Assembly (NCBI GenBank): GCA_027306885.1
Contig: DAHUYV010000019.1
Coordinates: forward strand, 1-50,000
Reading direction: 5' to 3'
From: Candidatus Dormiibacterota bacterium
GTDB lineage: Bacteria > Chloroflexota > Dormibacteria > Aeolococcales > Bog-877
Length of the DNA: 50,000 nt
The translations under genes and the position numbers were made by a program. Positions 5,538 to 42,921 of the stretch are shown here, one piece after another; positions within the stretch are counted from its first letter, which is position 1, and each line of letters opens with the position of its first letter. The notes below the pieces were generated by a model. That model saw only the letters and a program-made list of their open reading frames with translations. It made no database searches and was not told the DNA's origin.

Positions 5538-5777
5538 TCATTCCAATTGGCCCAGCTCAGCCGCCTGGCGGAGCTCCGCGACGATCGCCTCGGCTTCGGC
5601 GGGGTCCACCCGTTGCAGGGCGAAGCCGCTGTGCACCACCAGCCACTCGCCGACCCGGGGCGCTTCCCCTTCGAAGGCCAAGAGGGAGGCCAGGTGCCGA
5701 GCCCCCTGGGCGTCCTCCACGGTCACCTGCAGGCCGACACCTTGATCGACCACCCGTTGCAGCCGGCTCAGGCACAT
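5538..5777 (-). CDS. hypC: HypC/HupF-family hydrogenase maturation chaperone
   Basis: A 79-residue protein starting MCLSRLQ. The Cys at position 2 is the residue by which HypC-family proteins bind the Fe(CN)2CO group and the immature large subunit. The body (VEDAQGARHLASLLAF, then VGEWLVVHSGFALQRV) matches the small OB-like HypC fold, and the length is normal. It overlaps the protease gene by 10 nt, so it is translated from the same transcript as the hydrogenase. HypA, B, D, E and F are not in the window and must be elsewhere for a working enzyme. Confidence 0.88.
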   Translation of the reverse strand: MCLSRLQRVVDQGVGLQVTVEDAQGARHLASLLAFEGEAPRVGEWLVVHSGFALQRVDPAEAEAIVAELRQAAELGQLE

Positions 5778-6241
5778 GCCATCCCCTCCTCAAGGAGTTC
5801 TCTGACCCTCAGGGCGGCGGCGGGGACCGCAGCCCTGACCCGGGGGCTGAGGCCGACCCCGAAGCCGAAGTCAGCCCCCTCCACGCCCACCAGCCAGACC
5901 TCCCTTGGGGCCTGGCCCAACGCCTGGGCCAGTCGGAGGACGCCGCCCAAGCCGATCCCGTGGCTGCTGGAGGTCGCCTCCCAGGCCGGGCCTTCCGGCC
6001 CGAGACGTCGCGAGTGGACGGTCCCCGCCGCGGCCCCAGACCGCACGGCGTCGACGATCACCGCGCAATCCGCCTGCGCCCAGACGCCGAGCAGGTCCAG
6101 GGGCTGGGGGACGACCAGGTAGTGGGGGCCATTTTCTCGGCGAGGGGTGGCCCGCGCCATGACCGCGCGCAACACCGCCGGGCCGACGCCGTCGTCCCGG
6201 CGGTCCGCCTCCCCCAAGCCGAAGACCATGAGGCCGCTCAC
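5768..6241 (-). CDS. Hydrogenase maturation endopeptidase (HyaD/HycI/HoxM-type)
   Basis: A 157-residue protein of the M52-type protease family, which trims the C-terminal peptide of the [NiFe] large subunit after nickel insertion. It shows the N-terminal VFGLGEADRRDDGVGPAVL (usually GNxxxxDDGxG) with the acidic nickel-sensing pair near residues 16-17, a CAVIVDAV strand with the second conserved Asp near 63, and a SSSHGIGLGGVLRLA segment with the conserved His near 94. Start ATG at 6241 overlaps the large-subunit stop as ATGA. The first family Asn/Glu position is slightly altered (GEADRR), which is within family variation. Confidence 0.88.
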   Translation of the reverse strand: MSGLMVFGLGEADRRDDGVGPAVLRAVMARATPRRENGPHYLVVPQPLDLLGVWAQADCAVIVDAVRSGAAAGTVHSRRLGPEGPAWEATSSSHGIGLGGVLRLAQALGQAPREVWLVGVEGADFGFGVGLSPRVRAAVPAAALRVRELLEEGMACA

Positions 6242-7548
6242 CGCTGGCGCTCCACGGTCACGTCGAGGAAGTGCGCCGCGCAGGAGATGCAGGGATCGTA
6301 GTTGCGCACCGTCTGCTCGCAGCGCCAGGTGAGGTCGGCATCGGAGAGCTCCAGGCCGGCCTGCACCACTTGGCGCAGGTCGGCCTCGATGGCGAGCTGG
6401 TTCTGCGACGTCGGCGGGACCAGGCGGGCCACCCGGATGAGGCCGGTGTCGTCGAGTTCGTAATGGTGGAGCAGGAGACCCCGCGGGGCCTCGGTGGCAC
6501 CGGTGCCGCTGCCGGCTCGGCCGGGTACCGGATCCGCAGGGGGGGAGGGGGGCTGATAGGAGTCGACCAGCCGCAGCGCCTCACCGCAGGCGTACATCAG
6601 CTCCACGGCCCGGACCACGATGCTCTGGAAGGGATTGCAGCACACCGCCGCCAGCCCCGCGGCCTCCGCCGCCCGGCGCACCTCTTCGGGCAGTCGCTCG
6701 CGGTTGAGCGCGTATCGGGCCATGGGCCCGGTCAGGTATCGGTCGCGGCCGCGCAGCCGGGCGTGGAGCGCGGTGGAGCGCTGCTCGTGCTCTTCGATCA
6801 CCATCGGCTCGAACTCTTCGGGGCTCACGTCGAGCCCGGCGGACGAGCCCACCCGGCCGGCTTCGATCGGGTACTGCTGGTCGCCGAGCAGAGCCACGAA
6901 AAGGTAGTCGGCCTCCAGGTCCGGGATGTCGAACCGCGAGACCCACTCCACCGTGGCCGCGGCGTCCTCCAGCGCCACCTGGAGCGGTCTTCGAAGCGCC
7001 TGGATCTCGGCCGTGGTCGGGGCCCGGTGGAAGCCTCCCACCCGCACGTTCACCGGGTGGATGGCGCGCCCTCCCACCGTTTCCATCAGCAGGTTTCCGG
7101 TCCGCTTGATCCGCAGCCCGCGCTCCACCGCGTTCGGGTCGAGCGCGGCCAGTCCCACGGCGTCCTGACAGCCCAGAAAGTCGGGGGCATGCAGGAGGTA
7201 GATGTGTAGGGCGTGGCTCTGGATCCACTCTCCACAGTAGAGAAGGCGGCGCAGCGCGGTGATCGGATCGCTCACCACCACCCCGCAGGCCTGCTCCACG
7301 GCCGCGCAAGCGCTCATCTGGTAGGCCACCGGGCAGATCCCGCAGACCCGGGCGGTGATGTCGGGGGCCTCATCGTGGCGCCGCCCCCGTAACAGGGCCT
7401 CGACGACCCGGGGTGGCTCGAAGATGTTGAGCGCCGCCTCCTGGACGGTGCCTCCCCGCACCACGACCCGAAGGGAACCCTCCCCCTCGACCCGGGCGAG
7501 GTCGGAGACCTGCAGCAGGCGCTCGCTAACGCTGGCGCTGTGGGTCAT
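6238..7548 (-). CDS. hyhL: [NiFe] hydrogenase large (alpha) subunit, group 3b type
   Basis: The 436-residue catalytic subunit of a cytosolic bidirectional NAD(P)-linked hydrogenase. Both nickel-binding motifs are intact: N-terminal [15 protein letters not shown] (about residues 67-81) and C-terminal [13 protein letters not shown] (about 418-430). Cleavage after the His would release a short tail ending in ERQR. The PVAYQMSA form of motif L1 is typical of group 3b, the sulfhydrogenase-like class. Start ATG at 7548 has AAGGAG upstream; an in-frame extension of 73 codons was rejected because it runs through the small-subunit gene. It overlaps that gene by 23 nt. Physiologically, group 3b enzymes may recycle H2 or dispose of reductant under hypoxia. 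Confidence 0.95.
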
Positions 7549-8326
7549 GGCGGAGACTCTCCTTGGCGAAGGCCGGGGCGCCGGCGTTGAAGGTCCGGAA
7601 CCAGCGCGACAGGTCGGCGGGATCCATCCCCACCTCCAGGAGCCGGTCTGCGAGCGCCCCGGTGTTGGTCGCCTCCGCAGGCCCGAAGCAGCCGTAGCAG
7701 CCTCTGCCGATCGCCGGGCAGAGCGCTCCGCAGCCCGCCTGGGTGACCGGCCCGAGGCAGGGGACACCGCGCCCCACCAGAAGGCAGGTGGTGCCCCGGA
7801 GCTTGCATTCCGCGCAGACGCTGTGGGTGGGGATCACCGGCCGTCGGCCGGCCAGGGCGGCGGTGATTACCTCCAGCAGCTGATGCCGGTCGATTGGGCA
7901 GCCCCGCAGCTCGAAGTCCACCTTGACGTGGTCGGCGATCGGGGTGGCGGTGGCCAGGGTCTTGATGTACTCGGGCCGGGCGTAGACGGCGGCAACGTAG
8001 TCGCCGATGTCGGCGAAGTTGCGCAGCGCCTGGATCCCGCCCGCGGTGGCGCAGGCGCCGATGCTGACCAGCGTCGTGGAGGTTGCCCGCACCAGCTGCA
8101 GCCGCTCCGCGTCCGCGGACGTGGTTATCGAGCCCTCCACGAAAGTCAGGTCGTAGGGCCCCTCGATGGTGGCGCGCGACATCTCGGCGAAGTGAGCGAT
8201 CGAGACCGCTCCCGCCAGGCTCAGCAGCTCATCCTCGCAATCCAGGAGGCTGAGCTGGCAGCCGTCGCACGAGGCGAACTTGAAGACCGCGACCGAGGGG
8301 CGGAAGCCCGGCGCTGGAGCGGTCAT
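7526..8326 (-). CDS. hyhS: [NiFe] hydrogenase small (delta) subunit, group 3b type
   Basis: The 266-residue electron-transfer subunit that carries electrons from the NiFe site through iron-sulfur clusters. The proximal cluster ligands are visible: SCDGCQLS (about residues 19-26), GACATAGG (about 92) and RGCPIDRHQ (about 141). A cysteine-rich C-terminal half follows ([12 protein letters not shown], then [16 protein letters not shown] and GCYGCFGP) for two more [4Fe-4S] clusters. There is no twin-arginine signal, which fits a cytoplasmic enzyme. It overlaps the gamma subunit by 4 nt. Confidence 0.93.
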
Positions 8327-9189
8327 CGCTCGCGCACCCCAAGGATGCTTTCGACCCGCTCACCGTAGGTGAAGACCGGCCCGTCTCGGCAGATCAGCCA
8401 GGGCCCGAGCTGGCAGTGGCCGCACAGCCCCACCCCGCACTGCATGTTCCTTTCCAGGGAGATCCGAATCGCCTCGGGGCGCATTCCCTGGCGCACCAGG
8501 GCGCGAGCGGTGAACCGGATCATGATCTCGGGTCCGCATACCAGGGCGGAGCTCCGGGTGAGGTCGAGGGGGACCTGGCCGAGAAGGTCGGTGACCACCC
8601 CGACGGGGCCTGCCCACCCGGGACGGGCGGTGTCCACGGTGAGCAGGACGTGCGCCCCGGAATGCTGCCAGTTGAGCACCTCCTCCTCGAAGAGCAACTG
8701 CTCCGGGGTCCGGGCCCCGACGACCACCGCCAGCTGGGGCCGGGGTCGGTGCGCCGGGCTCCGCTCCAGAAGGGCCCGAACCGCGCCCCGCAGCGGTGCC
8801 AGCCCGATCCCGCCGGCGACCACCAGCACGTCGGAGTGGAGGAGTTCGCGGACTCCCCAGGCGGTCCCGAATGGGCCCCGGACCCCGACCACCTGGCCCG
8901 GGGCGGTCTGGCAGAGGGCTCGGCTGACCGCGCCCACCGCCCGCACGGTGTGCTCGAGCGGCTCGCCCACGGCCGGGTCGTTGCTGATCGAGATCGCCAC
9001 CTCGCCGACCCCGAGGGCGGTCAGCATGTTGAACTGCCCAGGGCGGGCCAGTGGGATCGGCTCCCCCGCCGGCTCCAGGGTGAGGGTGACCGTGTCCTCG
9101 GTCTCCCGGCGCTTTCCCGCCAGACGGTAGAGGAGGGGGGTGAGCGGGTGCCGGGTCCTCGGCCCCGCCTCAACGGCCAGGACCATCAC
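8323..9189 (-). CDS. hyhG: Hydrogenase gamma subunit: FAD/NAD(P)-binding oxidoreductase
   Basis: A 288-residue ferredoxin-NADP reductase-like protein that moves electrons between the hydrogenase module and NAD(P). The FAD-binding part has [15 protein letters not shown] and AISISND (about residues 47-76). The nucleotide part has [19 protein letters not shown] (about 121-139). The C-terminal [17 protein letters not shown] segment (about 251-267) gives four Cys ligands for a [2Fe-2S] cluster. Length and order match HydG/HyhG subunits. It overlaps the cNMP-domain gene by 20 nt. Confidence 0.92.
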
Positions 9190-9640
9190 CGTAGAGGTCC
9201 AGGACCCGCAGCTCGGTCGCCTGCAGGCGCTCCAGCATCAGGCTGGCGAACCTTCGCATCAGCAGGAAGCCGAGCTCGTGGTCGGCCTCGGCCTTCGCTC
9301 GCAGGCAGTTGCCGTCCACCGCCACCGCGCCCAGCGGGGAGGTGACCCGCCCGGTGAAGTTCCAGCGATAGGGTGGGAAGAGCCAGGACCAGCCCACAAC
9401 GCTGCGGGGCCCGACGGTCTCGATCACCAGCGGCCCGCGGCCAGGTGCGTGCACCTCCAGCGACACCCGCCCGCGGCGAATGAGGTAGAGCGTGGTGGCG
9501 GGGTCGCCCTCGAGGAAGAGGATGTCGCCCGGTTCGGCCACCACGTTCCGCGAGCATCCCGCCACCTGCTCCACATCCGTCGGGGACAGGCCTTCCAGCA
9601 GGGGGTGCCCACCGATCAGCTCGACGATCGTTTCCGCCAT
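9170..9640 (-). CDS. Stand-alone cyclic nucleotide-binding domain protein in hydrogenase operon
   Basis: A 156-residue Crp-like cNMP-binding domain with no DNA-binding helix-turn-helix. It has the beta-roll [25 protein letters not shown] and a phosphate-binding-cassette-like stretch [21 protein letters not shown], where the usual FGE and Arg of true cAMP binders are changed, so the ligand is uncertain. I prefer the ATG at 9640, which has GAGGTG 6 nt upstream and sits just after the beta-subunit stop, over an in-frame start 13 codons earlier. Encoded between beta and gamma subunits, it may regulate or stabilise the hydrogenase allosterically rather than act as a transcription factor (inference). 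Confidence 0.85.
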
Positions 9641-9641
9641 C

Positions 9642-10862
9642 TCACACACCTCGTTCCCCGGCCGGGACCGGGTTTCCAACGTCGCTCGCCCGGAGGGCGG
9701 CCACCTCCTCCGTCAGGTCGATGCCGACCGGGCACCAGGTGAGGCACCGGCCGCAGCCAACGCAGCCGGAGGTCCCGAACTGCTCGAACCAGGTCCCCAG
9801 CTTGTGGGTGAGCCACTGCCGGTACCGGGCCCTGGTCGAGGGCCGAACCGCCCCGCCGTGCAGGTAGGAGTGGCCGACCTCGAAGCAGGAAGCCCAGCGT
9901 CGGTGCCGCTCGATGCCGGTGGTCACGTCCGTCACGTCCTCGATCGAGACACAAAAGCAGGTGGGGCAGACCTGGGTGCAGTTGCCGCAGGAGAGGCACC
10001 GGGCCGCCACCTCGGACCACCGCGGGTTCTCCAGGTTGCGCTCGAGAAGGTGGGGAAGACTGGCGGTATCTACCCGGCGAACCAGGCCGGCCCTGGCTCC
10101 GGCGACCACCGCCTCCCGCGCCTTGAGGTCGCGCTCCTCCGCCGGAAGGGTTCGGATACCTGCCAGAACCGCAGCTCCCCTCTCCGAGCCGGCCCGGACC
10201 AGGAACCGCTCCCCATCGGCGTCCCGGATCTCGGTCAGGGCGAGGTCGAAACCGCTCTCCGCGGAGGGGCCGCTGCCCATCGACTCGCAGAAGCAGCTGG
10301 CCGAGGGCCGGCCGCACTCCACCGTGCACACGAAGAGGTCACGGCGCGCCGCCACGAAGTCGGGATCCGGCACTGGCGATCTGCCCAGCACCCCATCCAG
10401 GATCCCGATGGCCGCGACCTCACAGGGGCGGACTCCGACCAGCGCGATCGGCGCCTTCGGCCCCTCGCTTGCCCCGATCGGCGCCGGGTCCCCGCCACCG
10501 CCGGCAGCCCGCCAGACCACGGACCGTGGCGGCCACAGCTCCCGCTTGGCGGACTGGGGGCCGACCGCCCACCCAAAGAGCTCCCCGTCCTCACCTGAGG
10601 TCAGCCGGTAGGTCCCTGGCCCCTGGGTGTCGTGCCACCCCTGCGGGAGGTCAGCGATCGAATCGATCTCGCCGAGAACGATGGCCCCGTCTGCGACGGT
10701 TGGCCCCAGAGTGCGGTACCCGCCCTCCCGCAGCCGGGTGATGAGGGACCCCAGCCCGGCGCGATCGATCGTGCAGGGAGTGGGAGGGATTGGCACTCCC
10801 GAGGCGGCCGGGATCGCGCTCGCGGCCCGCGCTTCCGATGGCGGGAATCCGTCCAGCGCCAT
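9642..10862 (-). CDS. hyhB: Hydrogenase beta subunit: 4Fe-4S ferredoxin-type protein
   Basis: A 406-residue iron-sulfur protein and first gene of the hydrogenase operon. The N-terminal region has [14 protein letters not shown] and [18 protein letters not shown], seen in HydB/AsrA-type subunits. The C-terminal third holds two cluster motifs, [16 protein letters not shown] (about residues 286-301) and [16 protein letters not shown] (about 365-380). It passes electrons between the gamma flavoprotein and the small subunit. Start ATG at 10862 has a GGGGGTGG stretch upstream; a 41-codon in-frame extension has no support and was rejected. A candidate promoter (TACACT, 10921-10926) lies about 59 nt upstream. 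Confidence 0.9.
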
Positions 10863-33378: not shown

Positions 33379-34641
33379 GTGCGGCTGCTCGCGGGCACCG
33401 GCTGGGGAGGCCGGCCTGGGGCCGCGGACGGGGCTGCCCCTGTGTCCGAGCCACCGGCTGCGGGTGCCCCGCCAGATCTCGCTGAGGCGCCGACCTGGGC
33501 GCGGCCGGTCCTCCTGACCCTGGCCCGACTGCGCGCCCCTCGCACGGTGGTCGCGGTGGCGATGAGTGGGGGCGTGGACAGCTCGGTGGCGGCAGCTCTC
33601 CTCGTGGCCGCGGGGGTGGGCGTGGTCGGTGTGACCATGCGCCTGTGGGGCGAGGAGGAGCTGGAGCGAGGGGAGGGGGGGTGCTGCTCCCTGGACGCGG
33701 TGGAGGACGCCCGCCGGGTCTGCGGCCGCCTGGGCATCGCCCACTATGTCCTCAACCTGCGTGAGCACTTCCATTCCACCGTGGTCGGCGACTTCCTGAG
33801 CCAGTATCGCGATGGGCTGACCCCGAACCCCTGCGTCCGCTGCAACGAGCGGGTCAAGTTCGATGAGCTCTACCGGCGGGTGCGGCTGGTGGGGGCGTCC
33901 CACCTGGCCACCGGTCACTACTGCCGGCTGACCGAAGCCGGCGACGGGAGCCTGGTGATGCGGCGCGCCCGGGACCAGCGCAAGGACCAGTCCTACACCC
34001 TGTACCGGACTCCCGACGAGGTGCTGCGCCGGTGCGTCTTTCCTCTCGGCGAGCTGGAGAAGCCCCAGGTGCGGGAGCTGGCCCGGACCTGGGGGCTGGC
34101 GGTGGCCACCAAGCCCGACAGTCAGGAGCTCTGCTTTGTCGGTGGCGGTGACCACCGGGGAGTGCTGGCCCGCGACCTCGCCGGCAGCTACGCCCCGGGT
34201 CCGATCCTGGACCTGGAGGGAAGGGAGGTTGGCCGGCATCAGGGCGTGCCTTTCTACACCGTCGGGCAGCGTCACGGCCTGGAGCTGAAGGTCACCCGGC
34301 CCGACGCGGAGCCCCAGTACGTCGTCAAGGTGGAGTCGAGGGCCAACACCGTGCGGATCGGTCCGTGGCGCGCGCTGCTGACCCCGTCCTGCAGCCTGAG
34401 CCGGCTCGTGGTCCTCAGCCCGCGGCCGGCGGGGGAGGGCGCCAACGCCCTCGCCCAGCTCCGGGCCCACGGGCGGCCGGTTCCGGCGCTCTGGTGGCAG
34501 CTTCCCGGCGGGCGGGCGCGGGTGGAGTTTCGCGAGCCGCAGGCCGGCGTCTCTCCCGGGCAGTCCCTGGTCCTCTACGATGGTGACCAGGTGGTGGCGG
34601 GCGGGGAGGTTGAAGTCGAGAGCGGAGCGGAGGCCCGCTGA
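33379..34641 (+). CDS. mnmA: tRNA-specific 2-thiouridylase
   Basis: A 420-residue enzyme that thiolates uridine 34 of tRNAs for Lys, Glu and Gln. Its PP-loop is AMSGGVDSSVAAALL, the catalytic Cys pair lies in LTPNPCVRCNERVKFDEL and SQELCFVGGG, and VGQRHGLEL opens the C-terminal part. The first 60 or so residues before the PP-loop are an Ala/Pro-rich extension not usual for MnmA; a later start could be real, but no better start signal is seen near residue 60. It sits 24 bp after the CysO-like carrier. Confidence 0.92.
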   Translation: MRLLAGTGWGGRPGAADGAAPVSEPPAAGAPPDLAEAPTWARPVLLTLARLRAPRTVVAVAMSGGVDSSVAAALLVAAGVGVVGVTMRLWGEEELERGEGGCCSLDAVEDARRVCGRLGIAHYVLNLREHFHSTVVGDFLSQYRDGLTPNPCVRCNERVKFDELYRRVRLVGASHLATGHYCRLTEAGDGSLVMRRARDQRKDQSYTLYRTPDEVLRRCVFPLGELEKPQVRELARTWGLAVATKPDSQELCFVGGGDHRGVLARDLAGSYAPGPILDLEGREVGRHQGVPFYTVGQRHGLELKVTRPDAEPQYVVKVESRANTVRIGPWRALLTPSCSLSRLVVLSPRPAGEGANALAQLRAHGRPVPALWWQLPGGRARVEFREPQAGVSPGQSLVLYDGDQVVAGGEVEVESGAEAR

Positions 34642-34973
34642 TGGGGTGGCCCATCGAGGCTCTCCTGCTTCTGGTGGCGCTGGCGGGTTGCACCGTTGCC
34701 GCCGCCGCGATTCAGCTCGCCTGGGCGTGGCGCAGCTGGCCGCTGCTGGCGGTGGGGCTGGCGACCGTCTGCAGCCTCGCCGCGGAAGTGGCGGCCCTCA
34801 ACGGGTGGTGGGGGCCGACGCTACCCGGCGGGGTGGCCACCGTCTCCCTGGGGATGGGCGCCGCGGCCGTGGCCGCGCTCGCTGTCTATCTGCTGCTCCC
34901 GCCCCCGCCTCCTCGGACGGACTCCAGGGCCCGGGCCACGGGACCTGCGGCCAACCCCGACAGCGAGGCTTGA
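34641..34973 (+). CDS. Small membrane protein, unknown function
   Basis: A 110-residue protein with three hydrophobic helices (about residues 6-27, 33-50 and 63-85) and a Pro-rich cytoplasmic tail. No family is recognised. ATG overlaps the mnmA stop by 1 nt. It starts a run of membrane-linked genes leading to the polyprenyl synthase and the complex I-like cluster, so it may serve the same membrane system. Confidence 0.6.
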   Translation: MGWPIEALLLLVALAGCTVAAAAIQLAWAWRSWPLLAVGLATVCSLAAEVAALNGWWGPTLPGGVATVSLGMGAAAVAALAVYLLLPPPPPRTDSRARATGPAANPDSEA

Positions 34974-34977
34974 GGCG

Positions 34978-35262
34978 TTGATTGCCGCGGTGCTCGGGGT
35001 GGTGGCGGCGGTGGTGATCGTGGTCGGGGGCTGGTTCGCGCCCGCTCCGGATCTCCTCACTGGGCGTGTGCTGCGGGCCGCTCGGGGCAGCCGGCTGCTC
35101 CTGTGGGCGGCTGTCCCATTCGTGCTGGCGCTGATGCTTGCAGCGCTGCTGGGTGCCAACGGCCGGTCGGGGCCCCTGCTGGTCACCCTTCTGGGGCTGG
35201 TGGGGTTGGCAATCCTGCTGGTTGGCTGGTTCGCCTGGAGCTATCCCGAGGTGGAAGCGTGA
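34978..35262 (+). CDS. Small membrane protein, unknown function
   Basis: A 94-residue protein with three helices (about residues 2-19, 41-60 and 66-84) and a C-terminal WSYPEVEA. No family is recognised. The TTG start at 34978 is chosen because it is the first start after the previous stop and gives a normal N-terminal helix, with only GAGG upstream. The stop overlaps the prenyl synthase start as GTGA. Confidence 0.55.
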   Translation: MIAAVLGVVAAVVIVVGGWFAPAPDLLTGRVLRAARGSRLLLWAAVPFVLALMLAALLGANGRSGPLLVTLLGLVGLAILLVGWFAWSYPEVEA

Positions 35263-36806
35263 GCGTCTCGCTGTCGCTGGGCTCGCGTGAGAGCCAGGCC
35301 GGCGCCGTCTCCGGGCCGTGGCTGCAGGAGGCCTACCGGCGCGCTCTGGACCGCCTCGAGGGGATGCAGTTCGGCCCGGCCCCCGACCGTCCCGGCGACG
35401 AGCTGGGATTGGCGGCCCGGTGGGCCCTCCGGGCCGCCGCCGCCGGGCCGGAGCTGGTCCCTCACGCCGGACTGGTCGCCAGCGCCGCGGAGATGACGCA
35501 GCGGGCGCTGGAGTGGCATGCCGCCGCCGCCCGCGGGGAGCAGTCGGTCGGGCTCGGCACCCTCGCCGGGGACTACTGCCTTGCCCAGGCTGCGGCCCTG
35601 CTCACCAGCTGCGGCAGCGTGGAGCTGGAGGCCGCCTTCGCCGACGGGCTGACCGTGGCCGGAGCGGTCCTCGCCGCGGGGGCTGGGATCGAGACGGTGG
35701 TCCGGCAGCTGCTGCCCGCAGCCGGCTGGGGAGGGGCTCGCTGCGCCGGCCTGCCCGGGTCGGCGCAGGCCAGGTGGTGGCGGGCCGGGCGCCGACTTGC
35801 CGCCACCCCGGCGGCGTTTCGATCCACCCCGCCCTGCCCGGACGAGGTCGCCTCACTCCTGCGGTCCGCCGACCCCCTGGAGCGTCGGCTCGGGGCCACC
35901 CTGGCGATGGATCCTCCCTCGGTGTCGGCACCGATGGCCCGGCTGTTGGGCGCGGGGGGCAAGCGGATCCGGGCCCGTCTGCTCCTCATCGCTGGCGAGG
36001 TGGGCCGGGAGTACCGACCGGACCTCATCATGAACGGGGCGGCGGCGATGGAGATGCTCCACGCCGCCACGCTCTGCCATGACGACCTGGTGGACGGCGC
36101 CGACTCCCGCCGGGGTGCCCCCACCGTGGCCTCCACCCAGGGGCCGCTGGTGGCTCTGGGGGTGGGCGACTACTACCTGGGCCGGGCCTCGGGGATGGTG
36201 GCGCGCCTCGGTGACCCGAGGATATCCAGGGCCTTTGCCACCGCCCTGGTGGAGATCGCCGAGGGGCAGTTGAGGGAGTTGGACCGACGCTCGGTCTGGT
36301 CGGCTGGCCTGGTGCCCTACGTGCAGGTGGCCCGCCGCAAGACCGGCTCCCTCCTGGCGGCCTGCGCCGCCATAGGGGCGCTTCTGGGGAGGGCGCCGGC
36401 CCGCGACGTCCGGGCCGTGGCGCGCTTCGCTCGGGACCTGGGCCTGGCGTTTCAGGGAATCGACGATTGCCTCGACTTCAGCGACCCGGGCCGGACCGGG
36501 AAGCCGGCCGGCATCGACCTGGCGCAGGGCATCTGCGGTCTGCCCGTGCTCTGCGCCCTCCGAGGCCCGCGCCGAGCCGAGGTTCTGGTGCGGCTCCGGC
36601 GCATGGAGCGGGTGGGCCCCGATGAGGCCGCCGCCCTCCGATCCCAGGTGGTGGCCCTGGTGCACGAATCGGGGGCCCTGGCGACCGCTCGGACGGTGGC
36701 GGACGGGTGGAGCGGCGAGGCCCTGGCCCACGTCTCGCACCTGCCGGAACCGATCCGGGTGCAGCTGGAGCGCTTCGCCGATCGCCTTACGCTTCGAGAC
36801 CGCTGA
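35259..36806 (+). CDS. Polyprenyl diphosphate synthase, double-length with degenerate N-terminal half
   Basis: A 515-residue protein, about 190 longer than usual. The C-terminal half is a complete trans-prenyltransferase: GGKRIR (233-238), first Asp motif DDLVD (275-279), KTGSLL (361-366) and second Asp motif DDCLD (402-406). The N-terminal half keeps the helical pattern and a TLAGDYCLAQAAALL block (101-115) comparable to the VGDYYLGRA block (302-310), but has no Asp-rich motif. It looks like a decayed second copy or a fused non-catalytic subunit, as in heteromeric heptaprenyl synthases. Probably makes the menaquinone side chain. GTG start overlaps the upstream gene. Confidence 0.82.
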   Translation: MSVSLSLGSRESQAGAVSGPWLQEAYRRALDRLEGMQFGPAPDRPGDELGLAARWALRAAAAGPELVPHAGLVASAAEMTQRALEWHAAAARGEQSVGLGTLAGDYCLAQAAALLTSCGSVELEAAFADGLTVAGAVLAAGAGIETVVRQLLPAAGWGGARCAGLPGSAQARWWRAGRRLAATPAAFRSTPPCPDEVASLLRSADPLERRLGATLAMDPPSVSAPMARLLGAGGKRIRARLLLIAGEVGREYRPDLIMNGAAAMEMLHAATLCHDDLVDGADSRRGAPTVASTQGPLVALGVGDYYLGRASGMVARLGDPRISRAFATALVEIAEGQLRELDRRSVWSAGLVPYVQVARRKTGSLLAACAAIGALLGRAPARDVRAVARFARDLGLAFQGIDDCLDFSDPGRTGKPAGIDLAQGICGLPVLCALRGPRRAEVLVRLRRMERVGPDEAAALRSQVVALVHESGALATARTVADGWSGEALAHVSHLPEPIRVQLERFADRLTLRDR

Positions 36807-36930: not shown

Positions 36931-37536
36931 ATGATCGGGGTGGCGGTCGCTGGGGGGGTGGCGGTGGGCTCGGCCCTTGCCTTTCTCCTCCGCCCGCAGC
37001 GGTCGCTGCAGCTGGCCGCCCTCCTGCTCATGAGCCTGGCCGCCGGTGTGGCGATGGCCACCGCCGGGGCCCTCATTCCGGGGATCGTGGTGGTCCTGGT
37101 TGGGGGGATCGGAACCACCGCTCTGCTCTCTCCCCTGAGCCGGAGCGCCACCGCGGGGGATCGTCGTGACCGGGCGGCCCGACGCGCCTCCACGATCTAC
37201 GCCGGCGTGGCCGGGCTGGGGGTCTTCGCCCTTCTGCTGGGGGTGGGCATCGCCACCCGGTCGGCCTTCTCGGCGGCGCCCCCCGGCCCCTCGCCCGCCC
37301 AGGTGGGCTCGGCGTTCCTGCTGGGAGCCGGGATCCCGGCCCTCGGCGCGGTGGTGCTCCTCGCCACCGTCCTGGTGACCGCGGTGGTGCTGATCCAGCG
37401 CGACCGCCGCGAGGCGCTCGAGGAGCAGGCTGAGGCGGCGCGCCGCCGCCGAATCGCCCAACAGAGGCGTCGGGCTGAGCAGCGCGAGGCGGCGCGGGCG
37501 GCCGCACGGGTTCAGCGGCGGGGCCCCAGAGGGTGA
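36931..37536 (+). CDS. NuoJ-like membrane protein (divergent complex I subunit)
   Basis: A 201-residue protein with five helices, then a long Arg/Ala/Glu-rich coiled-coil-like tail (about residues 150-201). Helix order and loops follow NuoJ: FLLRPQRSLQLAALLLMSLAAGVAM, then ALIPGIVVVLVGGIGTTALLSPL at the place of the NuoJ pi-bulge region, and a last long helix. The Glu of the usual PFE motif near the last helix is absent (AGIPALGAVVLL). Identity rests on position as first of a J-K-L-M-N order and on topology; sequence match is weak. Start ATG with AGGAGG upstream. Confidence 0.6.
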   Translation: MIGVAVAGGVAVGSALAFLLRPQRSLQLAALLLMSLAAGVAMATAGALIPGIVVVLVGGIGTTALLSPLSRSATAGDRRDRAARRASTIYAGVAGLGVFALLLGVGIATRSAFSAAPPGPSPAQVGSAFLLGAGIPALGAVVLLATVLVTAVVLIQRDRREALEEQAEAARRRRIAQQRRRAEQREAARAAARVQRRGPRG

Positions 37537-37976
37537 GCGGTTCCGCCGCCGCGCTCCTGGTGGCCGCCGCCGGGCTTGTCGGCGTCTCGGTGGGCGCCTT
37601 GGTCCACCGGCGGGACGCCCTCGGCGCCATCGGCGCTGTGCTCATGCTGCTGACGGCGGCGGGGTGTGCCCTGGCGGCGTTCGCGGCCACCGCCCCGACC
37701 AGCTCCGACTCGGCCCAGCTCCAGGCGTTCGCGCTCGTCGTGGAGCTCCTGGCCCCGTCCCTGGTCGTGGCCGCGGTCGGCGTGGCCCTGGTGCTGCGCC
37801 GCCGGTCCGGGTCCGACCTCCTCAGCCTCGTCACCACCCGCCCCACCGGCCCGGCGGCCGCCGCCAGATCCAGCTCGGCTTCCGAGCCTTCGGAGCCGGA
37901 GAATGAGCCCGGGAGCGCCACCGACGGCTCGCCGGCCGCGGACGATGACGGCGACGCCGCGGAGGAGCCGCTGTGA
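37533..37976 (+). CDS. NuoK-like membrane protein (divergent complex I subunit)
   Basis: A 147-residue protein with three helices in the first 90 residues, like NuoK, plus an added acidic, Ser/Pro/Asp-rich tail (about residues 95-147). In NuoK the first buried Glu sits in an IGIELM-type motif; here the equivalent reads AIGAVLMLL, so the Glu is lost. A second Glu remains in VVELLAP. GTG start overlaps the previous stop, and its end overlaps the NuoL-like gene. Confidence in the family rests mainly on size, topology and position. Confidence 0.55.
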   Translation: MSGSAAALLVAAAGLVGVSVGALVHRRDALGAIGAVLMLLTAAGCALAAFAATAPTSSDSAQLQAFALVVELLAPSLVVAAVGVALVLRRRSGSDLLSLVTTRPTGPAAAARSSSASEPSEPENEPGSATDGSPAADDDGDAAEEPL

Positions 37977-39946
37977 GGCTGTTCGACGCTGGTTGGGTCC
38001 TCCTGCTTCTGCCGTTGGGGGGGATCGCGGCCAGCTACCTCTCGGAGACCCGCCGAGGCTCGGCCTGGGCGGTTTGGGGTGCGGCCTGGCTGACGCTGGC
38101 CGCCTCGCTGTTGCTGTTGGCCGCCACGGTGGCTCATCACACCGTCGTGAATCAATCAACGATCACCTTCTGGAGCTTCTCGGTCACCCAGACGCCGTTC
38201 AACGCGGCCACCGCCACCCTGCTGCCCGCCACCTTCCAGGTGGGGGTGGGGTTCGCCGCCACCCCATTCGGGGCGGTCCTGGCGGTGCTGGCCTCGGTCA
38301 CCGTCCTGCTCGGGGAGGCCCAGCTGATGGGCCAGCTTCGCTCCAGCCCTCAGCTCCCGACCCTGATGCGCCTCTCCGCGCTGCTCGGGCTCGCCGCCCT
38401 GCTGGTGGTGCTGGCCCCGGGCCTCTTCCAGCTGTTCCTCGGCGTCGGGCTGACCGGGCTTCTGGCTTCGCTGCTGGCGGGGGCCGGTGGCGGCACTGGA
38501 TTCGGTCGGGCGGCGCGGTACACCCACGTGGCTTGGACCGCCGGGACCGCCTCCCTGCTCTTGGCGGTGGTGTTCGTGTACACCAAGTTCGCCGGTGCCG
38601 TGGCCGTGGCGGCCACCACCGGGAAGCACGCCACCGCCCAGACCCCGTACGGGCTCAATCTCACGGCGCTGGATGCCATCTGGCAGGCGGCACACCGCGG
38701 CGCCGTCAATGCGGTCGGTGGCAGAACCCTGACCTTGGCCGCGGTCCTGTTCCTGGTGGCGGCCGCCTGTGGCGCCGGCCAGCTGCCGCTCCAAGGGGTC
38801 TGGAGGGCGCTCGCGCATGCCCCCTCCGGGGCCGGCCCGCTGTTGCAGGGGCTGTCGGGTGTGGTGGTCCCGGCATCCCTGCTGCTGGCCGTGTTCCCCC
38901 TCCTGCACCTGGCTTCCGGGGCGCAGCCGGCCCTGCTGGTGCTCGGCTCCGTCTCCAGCCTCGCCGGGGCGGTCCTCGCTCTCGGGGAGCAGCGGCTACT
39001 CCGCTTCCCCGCCTGGGTGGCGCTCAGCCAGGCGGGGATGGTGCTGGTGGCGATCGGGGTAGGCTCCCCCGCGGCAGCGGTGGCGCTGGCGATCTCCACC
39101 GTTCTGGTGGGCATGGCGCTGGGCGCGGCCACCTCGCGCCTGAGCCTGGACCTGAGGGTGGACACCGTCCAGCGCCTGGGGCTGGCCTGGAGGCAGGCGC
39201 GCCCCAGCGGGTGGGCGATGCTCGGGGCGCTGGCGGCGGGGTCGGGGGCCCTCGGCCTCGGTGCCTTCTTCGCCCGGTCGGAGGTCCTGGCGGCGGCCCT
39301 GAGCTCTGGCCCGGAGGCCGCGGCTCTGCGGGTGGTGGCGGTGGTGGCGGTCATCCTGTCGCCGCTGGCGGTGGCGGCGGGGTGCGGCCGGCTCGCGTGG
39401 CACCTTCTCCGTGGCGCCGACCCCTCCGACCCGCGCGAGGCGCGCTCGGCTCGCCGCCAGCTCAGCCAGGGCCAGCGCCAGGCCGGGGACAGCGTTCCGA
39501 TCGTGGCGGCGGTCCTGGCCGTGCTCGCCGGCGTCCTCGCCCTGATCCTCGGCCGGATGCTTCCGGAGCCGGGGGCCATCCCTGGCCTGTCCGCCTCCGG
39601 CGCGGCCCTCCTGGCGATGACCGTCCTGCCCCTTTTGGGGCTCGCCCTGGCCTGGACGGCGGGCGCCCGCCTTGGGGCCCCGGCCCGCACCCAGGGTGTC
39701 CTTGACGGCACGGCATTGCTGGCGGCGGCGACCGATCTCGGCCTCGGCTGGCCGGCCGAGGCGGTGGAGGCCTTCACCACCCGGGTCTGGCAGCCGGTGG
39801 CGGATGGCGCAGGTGGCGTGCTCGCCGAGCTTCTGGGAGCGGACGAGGGTGGTGCCGGGCCGATCTGGGATCGCTGGGCGGGAGCTGCCGTCCTGGCCCT
39901 GCTGGCGCTGGCGGTGGCGGCGGCATCGTGGTGGGGGTTGGCCTGA
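37973..39946 (+). CDS. NuoL-like antiporter-type membrane protein with missing proton-path residues
   Basis: A 657-residue protein with about 15 helices. Homology is visible in GAGQLPLQGVWRALAHAPSGAGPLLQG, which aligns with the KSAQ-PLHVWLPDA-PVSALIHAAT region of NuoL, and in LGAFFARSEVLAAAL, which aligns with GFFSKDEIL. The helix-7 Lys becomes Gly, the helix-8 His becomes Gln-Gly, and the GWELVG Glu becomes Gly (GVGLTGL). The SKDE Lys becomes Arg. It may therefore not pump protons as NuoL does. GTG start overlaps the NuoK-like gene by 4 nt. Confidence 0.75.
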   Translation: MRLFDAGWVLLLLPLGGIAASYLSETRRGSAWAVWGAAWLTLAASLLLLAATVAHHTVVNQSTITFWSFSVTQTPFNAATATLLPATFQVGVGFAATPFGAVLAVLASVTVLLGEAQLMGQLRSSPQLPTLMRLSALLGLAALLVVLAPGLFQLFLGVGLTGLLASLLAGAGGGTGFGRAARYTHVAWTAGTASLLLAVVFVYTKFAGAVAVAATTGKHATAQTPYGLNLTALDAIWQAAHRGAVNAVGGRTLTLAAVLFLVAAACGAGQLPLQGVWRALAHAPSGAGPLLQGLSGVVVPASLLLAVFPLLHLASGAQPALLVLGSVSSLAGAVLALGEQRLLRFPAWVALSQAGMVLVAIGVGSPAAAVALAISTVLVGMALGAATSRLSLDLRVDTVQRLGLAWRQARPSGWAMLGALAAGSGALGLGAFFARSEVLAAALSSGPEAAALRVVAVVAVILSPLAVAAGCGRLAWHLLRGADPSDPREARSARRQLSQGQRQAGDSVPIVAAVLAVLAGVLALILGRMLPEPGAIPGLSASGAALLAMTVLPLLGLALAWTAGARLGAPARTQGVLDGTALLAAATDLGLGWPAEAVEAFTTRVWQPVADGAGGVLAELLGADEGGAGPIWDRWAGAAVLALLALAVAAASWWGLA

Positions 39947-41473
39947 GTGCCCAGCGACATCAGCCTCACCTTGATCGTGTTCGCACCCCTGGTCGGCGCC
40001 CTCATCGTGCTCGCCCTTCCGGCTCGGACCGATCTGGAGCGCTTCCGGGTCCGAACCACCGCGCTCTTCGCCACCGCGCTCCCCCTGGCGGTCGCCATAT
40101 TCGACCTCCTGGGGGAAGTCGGCAACCCCGCTCAGGGCGCCCTCGCCCAGCCCAGCATCGACGCCCCCTGGTTGCGCGGCTTCTTCTTCCAGATGGACTA
40201 CCACCTGGGCACCGACGGGCTGAACCTCATGCTCCTGTTCGCTGTGACCGTCGTGTTCCCGGCCCTGGTCCTCGCCAGTTGGAGGCAACGGCAGCGGCCC
40301 CGCTCCCACTTCGCCCTGCTGCTGCTCACCGAGGTGGGCCTGGCTGGCACCATGGCCACCCAGGACCTCCTCCTGCTGGTGGTGTTCTTTTGGATGCCGG
40401 TGCTGCCGCTGGCGCTCCTGGTCGGTCAGGGGCAGCATCCACGGGCGGCCGAGGCGGCCCGCCGGGTCCTGGTCAGCCAGTCTCTGGGCTCCGCCGCCCT
40501 CCTCCTCGCCGCCTTGCTGGTGCTGCTGCGCACCGGCAACACCACCTTCAACTTCACGACCCTCTCCACCGTCACTCCGCTCCAGGGAGCCCCGGGGCTG
40601 GTCGTGGCCGCGCTACTCCTCTTCGCCTTCGGCTCGCGCCTGGCGGTCTTCCCCCTCCAGCGCTGGCTGGTGGGCGGCCTGGAGGCCGCCTCCACCCCCG
40701 TCGCCATGCTGTTGGTGCTCAGCTCGGTCCCGGTGGGCACCTATGGGTTGGTTCGCGTGCTGCTGGGGATCGACCCGAAGGGGGCCCTCCAGTTGGTGCT
40801 CCCGGTCCTGGCCCTGGCGCTGGTGACGCTGTACTGGTCGGCCCTGGCCGCGCTCGGGGCGAGGGATGTGCGCCGCGCCACGGCCTCGCTCCTGGTCGGC
40901 GTCGGGGGCCCGGTGCTTCTCGGGGTGATCACCTTCTCCGAGACCTCGCTCTCCGGAGCCCTCTGGCTGGGGTTCGCCACCGGCTTCTTCGGACCGCTCC
41001 TGGTCCTGGTGACGGGAGCCGTCGCGGAGCGGGGAGGGGAGGGGAGCCTGGCTAGACTCGCCGGCCGGGCGGGAGGCGCCGACCGGCTCCGCCTCCTCTA
41101 CGTTTGCGCGGCCGCGGGACTGGTGGGCGTGCCGTTCCTGGCGGGGTTCCCGGGGCTGTTCCAGGTCCTGGTGGGGAGCTTCGCCCAGCACCGATTCGTG
41201 ACCGCCCTGGTGGTGGCCGGCATGGCTCTTCTGGCGGTGGCCGCCTGGCGGGTTGGGGCGGCCCTCTTCTGGGGTGGGCCGGAGGACGAAGCCGAAGTGG
41301 AGCGGGTCAGCGATGCGAGGGGGTCCGAGTTCTACGCGGGCTGGTGGCTGGCGGCGGCGATCGTGGTGTTCGGGCTCACCGCCGGCTACTTCATCCCCTA
41401 CACGGTTCACGGCACCGACCTCGTGGCGGCCCGGGTGTCCAGCCTCGCCCCCGCCAAGGTGCCCGGCAAGTGA
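39947..41473 (+). CDS. NuoM-like antiporter-type membrane protein with missing proton-path residues
   Basis: A 508-residue protein with about 14 helices. The HLGTDGLNLMLLFAVTVVFPALVLASW run matches the NuoM LGVDGLSL region well, and VGVPFLAGFPGLFQVLVGSF matches the late GFPGEF motif. The key buried Glu of FFWELML is replaced (VVFFWMPVLPL). The helix-7 Lys of VKMPMVPVHGWLPDAH is Arg (GSRLAVFPLQRWLVGG), and the helix-8 Lys of LLKTAAYGLLR is Ser (LSSVPVGTYGLVR). Strong subunit identity but altered function is inferred. It directly abuts the NuoL-like gene. Confidence 0.82.
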   Translation: MPSDISLTLIVFAPLVGALIVLALPARTDLERFRVRTTALFATALPLAVAIFDLLGEVGNPAQGALAQPSIDAPWLRGFFFQMDYHLGTDGLNLMLLFAVTVVFPALVLASWRQRQRPRSHFALLLLTEVGLAGTMATQDLLLLVVFFWMPVLPLALLVGQGQHPRAAEAARRVLVSQSLGSAALLLAALLVLLRTGNTTFNFTTLSTVTPLQGAPGLVVAALLLFAFGSRLAVFPLQRWLVGGLEAASTPVAMLLVLSSVPVGTYGLVRVLLGIDPKGALQLVLPVLALALVTLYWSALAALGARDVRRATASLLVGVGGPVLLGVITFSETSLSGALWLGFATGFFGPLLVLVTGAVAERGGEGSLARLAGRAGGADRLRLLYVCAAAGLVGVPFLAGFPGLFQVLVGSFAQHRFVTALVVAGMALLAVAAWRVGAALFWGGPEDEAEVERVSDARGSEFYAGWWLAAAIVVFGLTAGYFIPYTVHGTDLVAARVSSLAPAKVPGK

Positions 41474-42921
41474 ACCTCTCCTTCCTCCAGGACTTCTCCA
41501 CCCTGGGGGTGCTGCTGCTGGGCGCGGTGGTCTGCGCCGCCCTGGAGGTGCTGCAAGACGCGGGCGGGGCGCGCGAACGCCATCTCAGCCGCTGGGCGGC
41601 GCTGGCCTTCCTGCTGCTCGCCTTCCTGGTCAGCATCGGCTTCTGGCGCAGCTCCCTGGGCCCGGCGCCGCCCGATGTCGAGCACGGCAGCTTCCTCATC
41701 GACCGCTTTGCCCTCTTCTTCTACGCGGCCGGCCCGGCGGCAGCGGCCGCCATCGTGCTCTGCGGAGCCGACCTTGAGGCCGAGCTCGAGCTCCACCAGC
41801 CGATGTACCACGCCCTGCTGCTGGTGGCCACCGCCGGGGTGGTGCTGACCGCATCGGCTGCCGATCTCGGCTCCCTGCTGGTGGGGCTGGCGCTGGTGGC
41901 GCTCCCGATGGCGATGGCCCAGGGGCTGCGCAAGATCGATGCCGCCGGCCTTCGCCGGACGGCGCGCTCGGTGACTGTGACCGGCTCCCTGCTGGCCGCT
42001 TTCGCCGCCGGCGAGGCGATCCTGGCGGGGCTGGGGCACGCCACCCAGCTCACCCGGCTCCAGGCGCTGCCACCCAGTGCCCTCCTGGCCGTGGCCGCGC
42101 TCCTACTCGTGGTCGGCTCCGCCGGGCAGCTGGGGGTCTTCCCCCTGACGCGTTGGCGGGCGGGTCAGGGCGAGGCCACCCCCCTCGCGCCGGCCCTCGC
42201 CGGCCTCGCCCTGCTCTCCCTGGCGGTGGCTGCCGCGCTGCTGCGCCTGCTCCCCGGGGCCCTGGGCTCCCAGCCCGGGGGTTGGACCCTGACGGTGAGC
42301 GCGATCGCCGCGGCCACGCTCCTCATCGCCCCGGTCCTGGCCTGGCGCCAGCGCCGCCTGCTGCCGGCGGTGGCCTATCTGCTGGTCGCGCAGGCCGCCC
42401 TCGTGCTGGTGGGGCTGGTGGGCCCGGGACGGCCCGGGACGGCCGCGGTCCTCTACCTCATTCTCGGGCTGGTGCCCATGGTGACCGCGGCTCTGGCGAT
42501 TCTGGGGGCGATGCGCCTGGCGGAGTCGGGGGACGGCCTCTCGGCGATCCGTGGCTTGGCGGCGCGCTCTCCGCTCCAGGGCGGCCTGCTCGCCCTCCTG
42601 CTGGCGGCCCTCGGCGGCCTGCCCCCTTTGGCGTCATTCTTCGCGCGCCTGCTGGTTGTCGAGACGTCGCTGCAGGCCGGGCTGGGGTGGCTGGCGGCGG
42701 TCGCCGTCCTCGCCGCGATCGTCTCGGCCGCGGTCGCCCTGCGCTGGCTGCTGGCGATCCTCGACCTGCACGCTGAAGGACCTCAGCTGGATCGTCCGGG
42801 GCGGGCGACGCTGCTGGGGCTGGCGCTCAGCGCGGCCGCCCTGGCCGGCTTCACGGTGGCGCTGGGCCCGCTCATGGGCATCGCCGCCCGAGCCGCGCTG
42901 GCCCCCCTGGCGGGGCCCTGA
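41470..42921 (+). CDS. NuoN-like antiporter-type membrane protein with missing proton-path residues
   Basis: A 483-residue protein with about 13-14 helices. The motif GLPPLASFFARLLVVETSLQAG matches the NuoN GIPPLAGFFAKF region. The helix-5 Glu of GLELLSLP is Ala (GLALVALPM), the helix-7 Lys of FKIAAVPFHFW is lost (GSAGQLGVFPLTRW), and the helix-8 Lys is Leu in an ALLSLAVAAALLR segment. GTG start at 41470 overlaps the NuoM-like stop. It is last in the cluster and convergent with the aldolase gene 10 bp away. Confidence 0.78.
   Translation: MNLSFLQDFSTLGVLLLGAVVCAALEVLQDAGGARERHLSRWAALAFLLLAFLVSIGFWRSSLGPAPPDVEHGSFLIDRFALFFYAAGPAAAAAIVLCGADLEAELELHQPMYHALLLVATAGVVLTASAADLGSLLVGLALVALPMAMAQGLRKIDAAGLRRTARSVTVTGSLLAAFAAGEAILAGLGHATQLTRLQALPPSALLAVAALLLVVGSAGQLGVFPLTRWRAGQGEATPLAPALAGLALLSLAVAAALLRLLPGALGSQPGGWTLTVSAIAAATLLIAPVLAWRQRRLLPAVAYLLVAQAALVLVGLVGPGRPGTAAVLYLILGLVPMVTAALAILGAMRLAESGDGLSAIRGLAARSPLQGGLLALLLAALGGLPPLASFFARLLVVETSLQAGLGWLAAVAVLAAIVSAAVALRWLLAILDLHAEGPQLDRPGRATLLGLALSAAALAGFTVALGPLMGIAARAALAPLAGP

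Follow-up and report, generated by a model that had tools for sequence, protein, structure and literature searches.

A J-K-L-M-N arm with an apparently broken proton relay

The 50,000-nucleotide stretch analysed here (positions 1 to 50,000 of contig DAHUYV010000019.1, assembly GCA_027306885.1, from a Candidatus Dormiibacterota bacterium; hereafter the window) carries at 36931-42921 five membrane protein genes in the order nuoJ-K-L-M-N. The quinone/connector and Fe-S genes of complex I (A-D, H and I) are absent from the locus, as an earlier note on this DNA had stated. We consider it reasonably likely that the cluster is the J-K-L-M-N arm of a second complex I, which has lost its redox half, has had its proton relays broken, and is kept under selection for a role other than pumping. 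Such arms are called orphan arms below, and the class carrying them is presumably Dormibacteria. New compared with the earlier note is the apparent descent of the arm from a full second complex I of 11 subunits, which one relative still keeps.

The five proteins are homologues of NuoJ (xJ, 36931..37536, 201 amino acids, with an Arg-rich C-terminal tail), NuoK (xK, 37533..37976, 147 amino acids), NuoL (xL, 37973..39946, 657 amino acids), NuoM (xM, 39947..41473, 508 amino acids) and NuoN (xN, 41470..42921, 483 amino acids). All genes lie on the + strand with intact frames, and each overlaps or abuts the next. NCBIfam searches gave E-values of 2.9e-62 for NuoM, 1.1e-31 for NuoN, 1.1e-9 for NuoL, 1.2e-4 for NuoJ and 0.025 for NuoK; all five matches fall under the curated cut-offs, M and N being clear by profile and L, J and K weak. 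The cut-off of Pfam Proton_antipo_M is passed by xM and xN, and by xL too in the genome search (E 2.4e-7). The gene order and coordinates, the clear NuoM and NuoN and the recognisable NuoL of the earlier note are borne out by the frames, by these profiles and by the structure models of L and M.

The earlier note had called for a search for a second, normal nuo operon, and one was found in the same genome (2.26 Mb, 90% complete) on contig C36, with nuoB-N read and nuoA expected beyond the stretch read. The six Proton_antipo_M matches of this genome comprise three in the orphan arm and three in the C36 operon, which also holds the single strong NuoH and the single NuoD. The orphan arm is about 20-32% identical to canonical complex I subunits.

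Models were built from alignments for two subunits, xL and xM, which are predicted to keep the NuoL and NuoM folds. The xL model (predicted local distance difference test score, pLDDT, 83.9) matches E. coli NuoL best (7p7k_L, Z 43.3, 512 residues, root-mean-square deviation, rmsd, 2.3), and the xM model (pLDDT 90.5) matches NuoM best (8e9g_M, Z 51.8, 494 residues, rmsd 2.2). In the region of the NuoL lateral helix, which in complex I clamps L-M-N, the xL model has helices within 571-620 and a last helix at 630-656; past residue 610, only rows with rmsd >5 align.

Residues are numbered as in E. coli; these numbers, and the way they correspond to Thermus positions, are in part assumed. At none of the 20 tabulated relay positions (eight in L, six in M, four in N and two in K) is the E. 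coli residue kept in the window. In xL, E144 is replaced by Gly159, D178 by Thr192, K229 by Gly267, H254 by Gln292, H334 by Leu372, H338 by Thr376, K342 by Gly380 and K399 by Arg435; in xM, E144 by Trp149, K234 by Arg231, K265 by Pro262, H322 by Val319, H348 by Thr345 and E407 by Leu404; in xN, E133 by Ala141, K217 by Gln220, K247 by Ser250 and K395 by Arg393; and in xK, E36 by Leu37 and E72 by Leu77. Three relay positions thus show Lys-to-Arg changes (L Arg435, M Arg231 and N Arg393). In xJ, both the Y-x-G-A motif of transmembrane helix 3 (TM3) and the PFE Glu are lost, the latter as the earlier note had reported. E144 of L and M and E133 of N are named in excerpts of PMC3046159; excerpts of PMC9802314 give the corresponding Paracoccus residues and describe the ion pair and the terminal residue as essential for catalysis.

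The relays are thus broken at the level of sequence, so the orphan arm should not pump protons. The loss described in the earlier note holds, with several of its letters off by one register: Met was given for Trp and Ser for Pro in M, "absent" for Gln and Leu for Ser in N, and Val for Leu in K. Nor do the relay residues appear to be shifted rather than lost, a question also raised there, save possibly at Glu71 of xK, which lies six residues before the E72 position; at this distance along the helix, it is not on the same face as that position. Around the remaining positions, L Arg435 is followed by Glu437 and N Arg393 by Glu398, and there is no other charged neighbour within 7 residues. Base composition was rejected as the cause: Lys-to-Arg changes are expected at 69-75% G+C, yet this genome's canonical operon retains its Lys. 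The canonical NuoL of the class (own copy, L007 8131-10134; L145-L148) has Ala at the Glu144 position in 5/5 cases and keeps K229, H254, H338 and K399.

Distribution of orphan arms and pattern of relay loss

Families f1-f4 and their kinship were assigned by a tool, and the genomes of the class are draft assemblies split over many contigs. Across the 61 nearest genomes, the orphan arm was found in 18/18 of f1, 30/31 of f2 (besides G019, described below), 6/6 of f3 and 5/5 of f4; in f2, none was seen in G047 (58% complete), and G035 was counted by a weak match only. The f4-type M is present in 40/42 f4 genomes at E <= 1e-94. With gene labels assigned by a simple gene finder and BLAST, none of the genes A-I was labelled in the 58 orphan stretches fetched; 33 of these include mnmA and 35 dnaX, and many are cut short by contig ends. 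In G030 (L092, L093), the orphan cluster occurs twice, on two contigs, possibly reflecting a mixed bin. An apparent xK deletion in G005 proved to be an assembly N-run.

Glu144 of NuoM is kept in 0/81 orphan copies (79 substituted, two gaps), against 12/12 same-type copies outside the class, 4/4 canonical copies of relatives, G019, the genome's own canonical copy and E. coli. In a set of 30 M loci, it is present in 19/19 from outside the class plus G019 and in 0/10 orphan copies. Lys247 of NuoN is likewise kept in none of 48 orphan copies, and the Y-x-G-A motif of NuoJ is at its proper place in 0/36 orphan rows versus 18/18 intact rows (f4 not represented), the NuoJ of G025, G026 and G041 having it elsewhere in the protein. 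NuoK E36 is kept in one of 37 orphan rows. Beyond M Glu144 and N Lys247, the losses form a lineage-specific mosaic: f3 retains L K229 and M K265 in 6/6 and L K342 and K399 in 5/6, with M E407Q in 6/6; L E144 is kept in five f1 genomes; and N E133, K217 and K395 are kept in G025.

By a hydropathy estimate, buried Lys/His are fewer in f1 than in intact copies (M 1.8 vs 5-7, N 1.6 vs 4-6, L 3.1 vs 5-11), and in f1 M the Arg count is up while buried Lys/His are down. Some buried residues conserved in f1 are absent from E. coli and G019, for example M Glu332, M Arg435, N Arg474 and L Arg133.

Middle and terminal transfer residues are both retained in all intact copies and in few orphan ones (M 1/81, N 0/48, L 5/47). 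Excerpts of PMC11496545 describe proton conduction in vitro by Thermus Nqo12 and Nqo13 when these are detached; conduction is faster with Gln in place of the ion-pair Glu, and it is blocked by substitutions of the middle Lys or the terminal Glu in Nqo13 and of the terminal Lys in Nqo12. This rule was derived from L and M homologues, and applying it to N and to the middle Lys of L is our extension. Under the rule as excerpted, 170/176 orphan copies would be blocked (M 80/81, N 48/48 and L 42/47), and the pattern of relay loss fits a sealing of the orphan arm.

Apparent origin from a second, 11-subunit complex I

In G019, a member of f2, mnmA and the same small membrane gene are followed by a complete 11-subunit operon, nuoA-B-C-D-H-I-J-K-L-M-N, with all relay residues intact. 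Downstream of it lie the acyltransferase, glycosyltransferase and DegV genes that also follow the JKLMN-only cluster of G025. Among 12 loci from other classes of the phylum, six have all eleven genes, three have most of them, two have J-K-L-M-N only, and one is cut. NuoH of the G019 type was found in G019 only among 110 class genomes; other NuoH matches of the class over 100 residues reach <=47% identity to it, which is the level of canonical NuoH. Four genomes (G268, G058, G251 and G017) have two canonical-level NuoH each and are perhaps mixed bins.

In a tree of L, M and N (42 rows), G019 falls within the class clade and f3 falls outside that node, with support of 97/100. From their common node, the branch to G019 measures 0.24 and that to the window about 2.6 changes per column. 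Uneven letter make-up was flagged in 27/42 rows of this tree, and G021 is one very long row. Monophyly of all orphan copies without G019 was rejected (approximately unbiased test, p-AU 0.0013; the grouping was named after the tree had been seen), which implies two or more losses of the redox half, barring its regain by G019. A clade of f2 plus G019 was not rejected (p-AU 0.168), and strict vertical descent with still more losses is therefore possible. These comparisons of gene order and phylogeny identify the arm as what is left of a second complex I, one of 11 subunits, after loss of its redox half, with the caveat that regain by or transfer to G019 is possible.

JKLMN-only gene content by itself was rejected as the hallmark of the orphan arm: G110 and G113 (L150, L158) lack A-I in the stretches read yet retain the tabulated relay residues. 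These two members of other classes of the phylum have two strong NuoH genes elsewhere, so split operons exist too.

Selection on the arm

Medians of the ratio of nonsynonymous to synonymous substitution rates (dN/dS) among six congeners (15 pairs; 10 for xK) are 0.09 for xM, 0.15 for xN, 0.17 for xL, 0.18 for xJ and 0.26 for xK, compared with 0.02-0.10 for canonical subunits and 0.22 for mnmA. Medians of 0.10-0.31 were obtained for four other genera of f2 and f3 and, with M alone, for f4. The arm proteins are evidently under purifying selection, less constrained than the canonical subunits. Marks of a pseudogene, namely broken frames and dN/dS near 1, are not seen in the window cluster. The earlier note's proposal of a maintained, relay-less arm rather than random decay agrees with medians well below 1 in six genera (one by M only); as for the relaxed selection or frameshifted close relatives that it had named as counter-evidence, dN/dS is low, and apparently split frames do occur in some fragmentary relatives.

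Genes around the arm

Upstream of the arm lie, all on the + strand, an mnmA homologue (33379..34641), which occupies the upstream flank likewise in f2, f3 and G019; yA (34641..34973), a small membrane protein of 110 amino acids conserved in f1 and with no convincing family match; yB (34978..35262), a small membrane protein of 94 amino acids, weakly conserved (31-37% vs six congeners); and a polyprenyl diphosphate synthase (35259..36806). The earlier note had tied the arm to this synthase, read as a menaquinone-tail synthase, and to the two small proteins. That tie is not upheld: the trio adjoins the arm in f1 only, f2, f3 and f4 having other flanking genes, and the genome carries a second polyprenyl synthase, so that the synthase is probably no part of the arm.

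In f3 (L053, L054, L103, L105), the interval from mnmA to nuoJ holds a small membrane gene and a gene for an FAD/NAD-binding oxidoreductase (PF00175/PF00970). In this family, and at some loci of f4, nuoN is followed by a gene whose product has transglycosylase and transpeptidase domains. Further off in the window, the region 5538-10862 resembles, to judge from its sequence, a cluster for a soluble NiFe hydrogenase, with genes for the large subunit, the small subunit and maturation.

Discussion

In our reading, the orphan arm is a membrane assembly that still folds, is largely sealed and has been retained for a role other than pumping. Its history would begin with a second 11-subunit complex I that lost its redox/quinone half (A-D, H and I) while J-K-L-M-N stayed. 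Antiporter modules without a redox half would leak protons, and the orphan arm would be harmful until sealed. The loss of relay residues in every subunit would be this sealing, selected because detached modules leak, as Thermus Nqo12/Nqo13 do in vitro, while the arm was kept for another reason; Lys-to-Arg changes would keep the charge and not the proton transfer. The sealed arm would then have been retained as a stand-alone J-K-L-M-N membrane complex with a structural or organising role, which is the weakest step and is offered tentatively. That a whole pump arm has turned proton-inert and taken on a new non-bioenergetic function, with the redox half lost repeatedly, the relay removed in all subunits and the assembly under selection, appears quite possible, if somewhat short of probable.

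Several observations weigh against this reading. Function and assembly of the arm are predictions from sequences and models, and its expression is presumed. A simple relaxation of constraint explains the pattern of relay loss nearly as well as sealing does. Blocking has exceptions, namely M of G033, which keeps both residues, and L of five f3 genomes; the f3 arm, whose L keeps the middle and terminal Lys in 5/6 and lacks the ion-pair Glu, may leak protons, since loss of this Glu speeds conduction in vitro (PMC11496545, as excerpted). By the hydropathy estimate, buried Lys/His are unreduced in f3 M (6.0 per protein), and buried Asp/Glu are little changed, without reduction, in f1 N. Glu71 of xK is present in 9/9 f1 NuoK rows and could be a shifted residue. 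G019 may have regained A-I or received the whole operon. Against the window genome, dN/dS of the arm is higher (0.24-0.47, with 0.06-0.26 for canonical subunits and 0.32 for mnmA), and M or N frames appear split in the fragmentary relatives G038, G041, G030 and G049.

Docking of xJ-K-L-M-N onto the canonical NuoA-I, which would yield a low-gear or non-pumping isoform of complex I, is unlikely. Ready partners are at hand, as genomes with an orphan arm have as a rule one strong NuoH and one strong NuoD, both canonical (exceptions are G017 and G058, with two strong NuoH each, and some drafts with none). The group-4-hydrogenase-like loci, present in some f1 genomes (L164, L165, L166) with M- and L-like subunits of their own, were rejected as partner of the arm: where seen whole (G002, G003), their NuoH/NuoD homologues sit with the loci's own M- and L-like genes, which also suits the docking idea, and in the window genome the contig ends inside this locus. 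Docking is nevertheless disfavoured because the coupling parts are degraded, the NuoJ TM3 motif being in place in 0/36 rows and NuoK E36 in 1/37; in excerpts of PMC7613608, the water wire that leads to the quinone site has TM3 of ND6/NuoJ as its gate. Moreover, G021 (L097; 91% complete) has an orphan L and M, both very divergent (branch 2.56), while NuoH, NuoD and canonical L/M/N were not found in it and one NuoF-family match was all that turned up, a situation that a missing contig could explain. It is similarly improbable, though less so for f3, that the arm now uses other charges to serve as channel or carrier for a different substrate or, in f3, to conduct protons. The newly conserved buried residues of f1, the likeness of f3 L to the fast-conducting Glu-to-Gln variant and the oxidoreductase gene inside the f3 cluster speak for it, whereas the relay losses are a lineage-specific mosaic and no clue to a substrate was seen among the neighbours scanned.

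A useless operon in slow decay is very unlikely. The missing relay residues, the long branch to the window compared with that to G019, a dN/dS exceeding that of most canonical subunits and the split frames would suit it, but frames are intact in the window and its congeners, dN/dS of 0.09-0.26 is similar to that of mnmA, and the arm is retained in nearly every genome of f1-f4; decay is largely contradicted by dN/dS and retention. An Mrp-like ion-translocating antiporter with relocated proton residues we regard as highly improbable too: the stand-alone J-K-L-M-N set is akin to Mrp gene content, the folds are intact and a Glu conserved in f1 xK lies six residues away from the original position, but buried Lys/His are few in f1, Arg is up in its M, and MrpE/F/G had no match among the eight window proteins scanned.

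The sealed, non-pumping arm that we favour can be set beside several known systems. The 11-subunit complex I (NuoA-D plus H-N, without E, F and G) of G019 and phylum relatives shares the locus and flanks in G019 and one clade of L/M/N with the orphan arm, which lacks A-D, H, I and the relay residues. The canonical 14-subunit enzyme (C36 operon; E. coli) is alike in J-K-L-M-N order and folds; by comparison, the arm has no redox half and has lost the ion pairs and the middle and terminal residues. Mrp antiporters are likewise stand-alone sets of L-, M/N-, K- and J-like proteins, and the xM model resembles MrpD (7qru_D, Z 43.7); unlike MrpA, which fuses both, the arm has J and L as separate genes, and its relay is absent. 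HycC of E. coli formate hydrogenlyase is an antiporter-like subunit in which one member of the ion pair is gone (Lys to Leu208; PMC9474812, as excerpted) but which retains Glu135 and a redox partner, both relay and partner being lost in the orphan arm. Detached Nqo12/Nqo13 are also antiporter subunits without a redox half (excerpts of PMC11496545), although these are engineered single subunits, whereas the arm comprises five natural subunits with an altered relay. The DabA/DUF2309 partner of the DAB/MpsAB carbon system was not found among the eight window proteins scanned. Among openly licensed papers, none was found that describes an arm of J-K-L-M-N alone for this class. The nearest published case is a bin placed with Dehalococcoidia, in which NuoCDGI are missing between NuoEF and NuoLMN (PMC9326234); Dormibacteria are mentioned in general terms only in the excerpts of that source.

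Within one class, orphan, partly degraded and intact arms are found, and one copy, intact and ancestor-like, occupies the same locus; this offers a natural experiment on the disputed question of what the arm does apart from pumping and which residues serve proton transfer alone. Should the f3 arms conduct protons, the "open" variants made in the laboratory would have natural counterparts in them. A folded, assembled and inert arm would reveal a second role for complex I subunits; if the reading is true, the complex I superfamily would have a natural "pseudo-pump", and G019 would be a living relative that retains the ancestral enzyme at the same locus.

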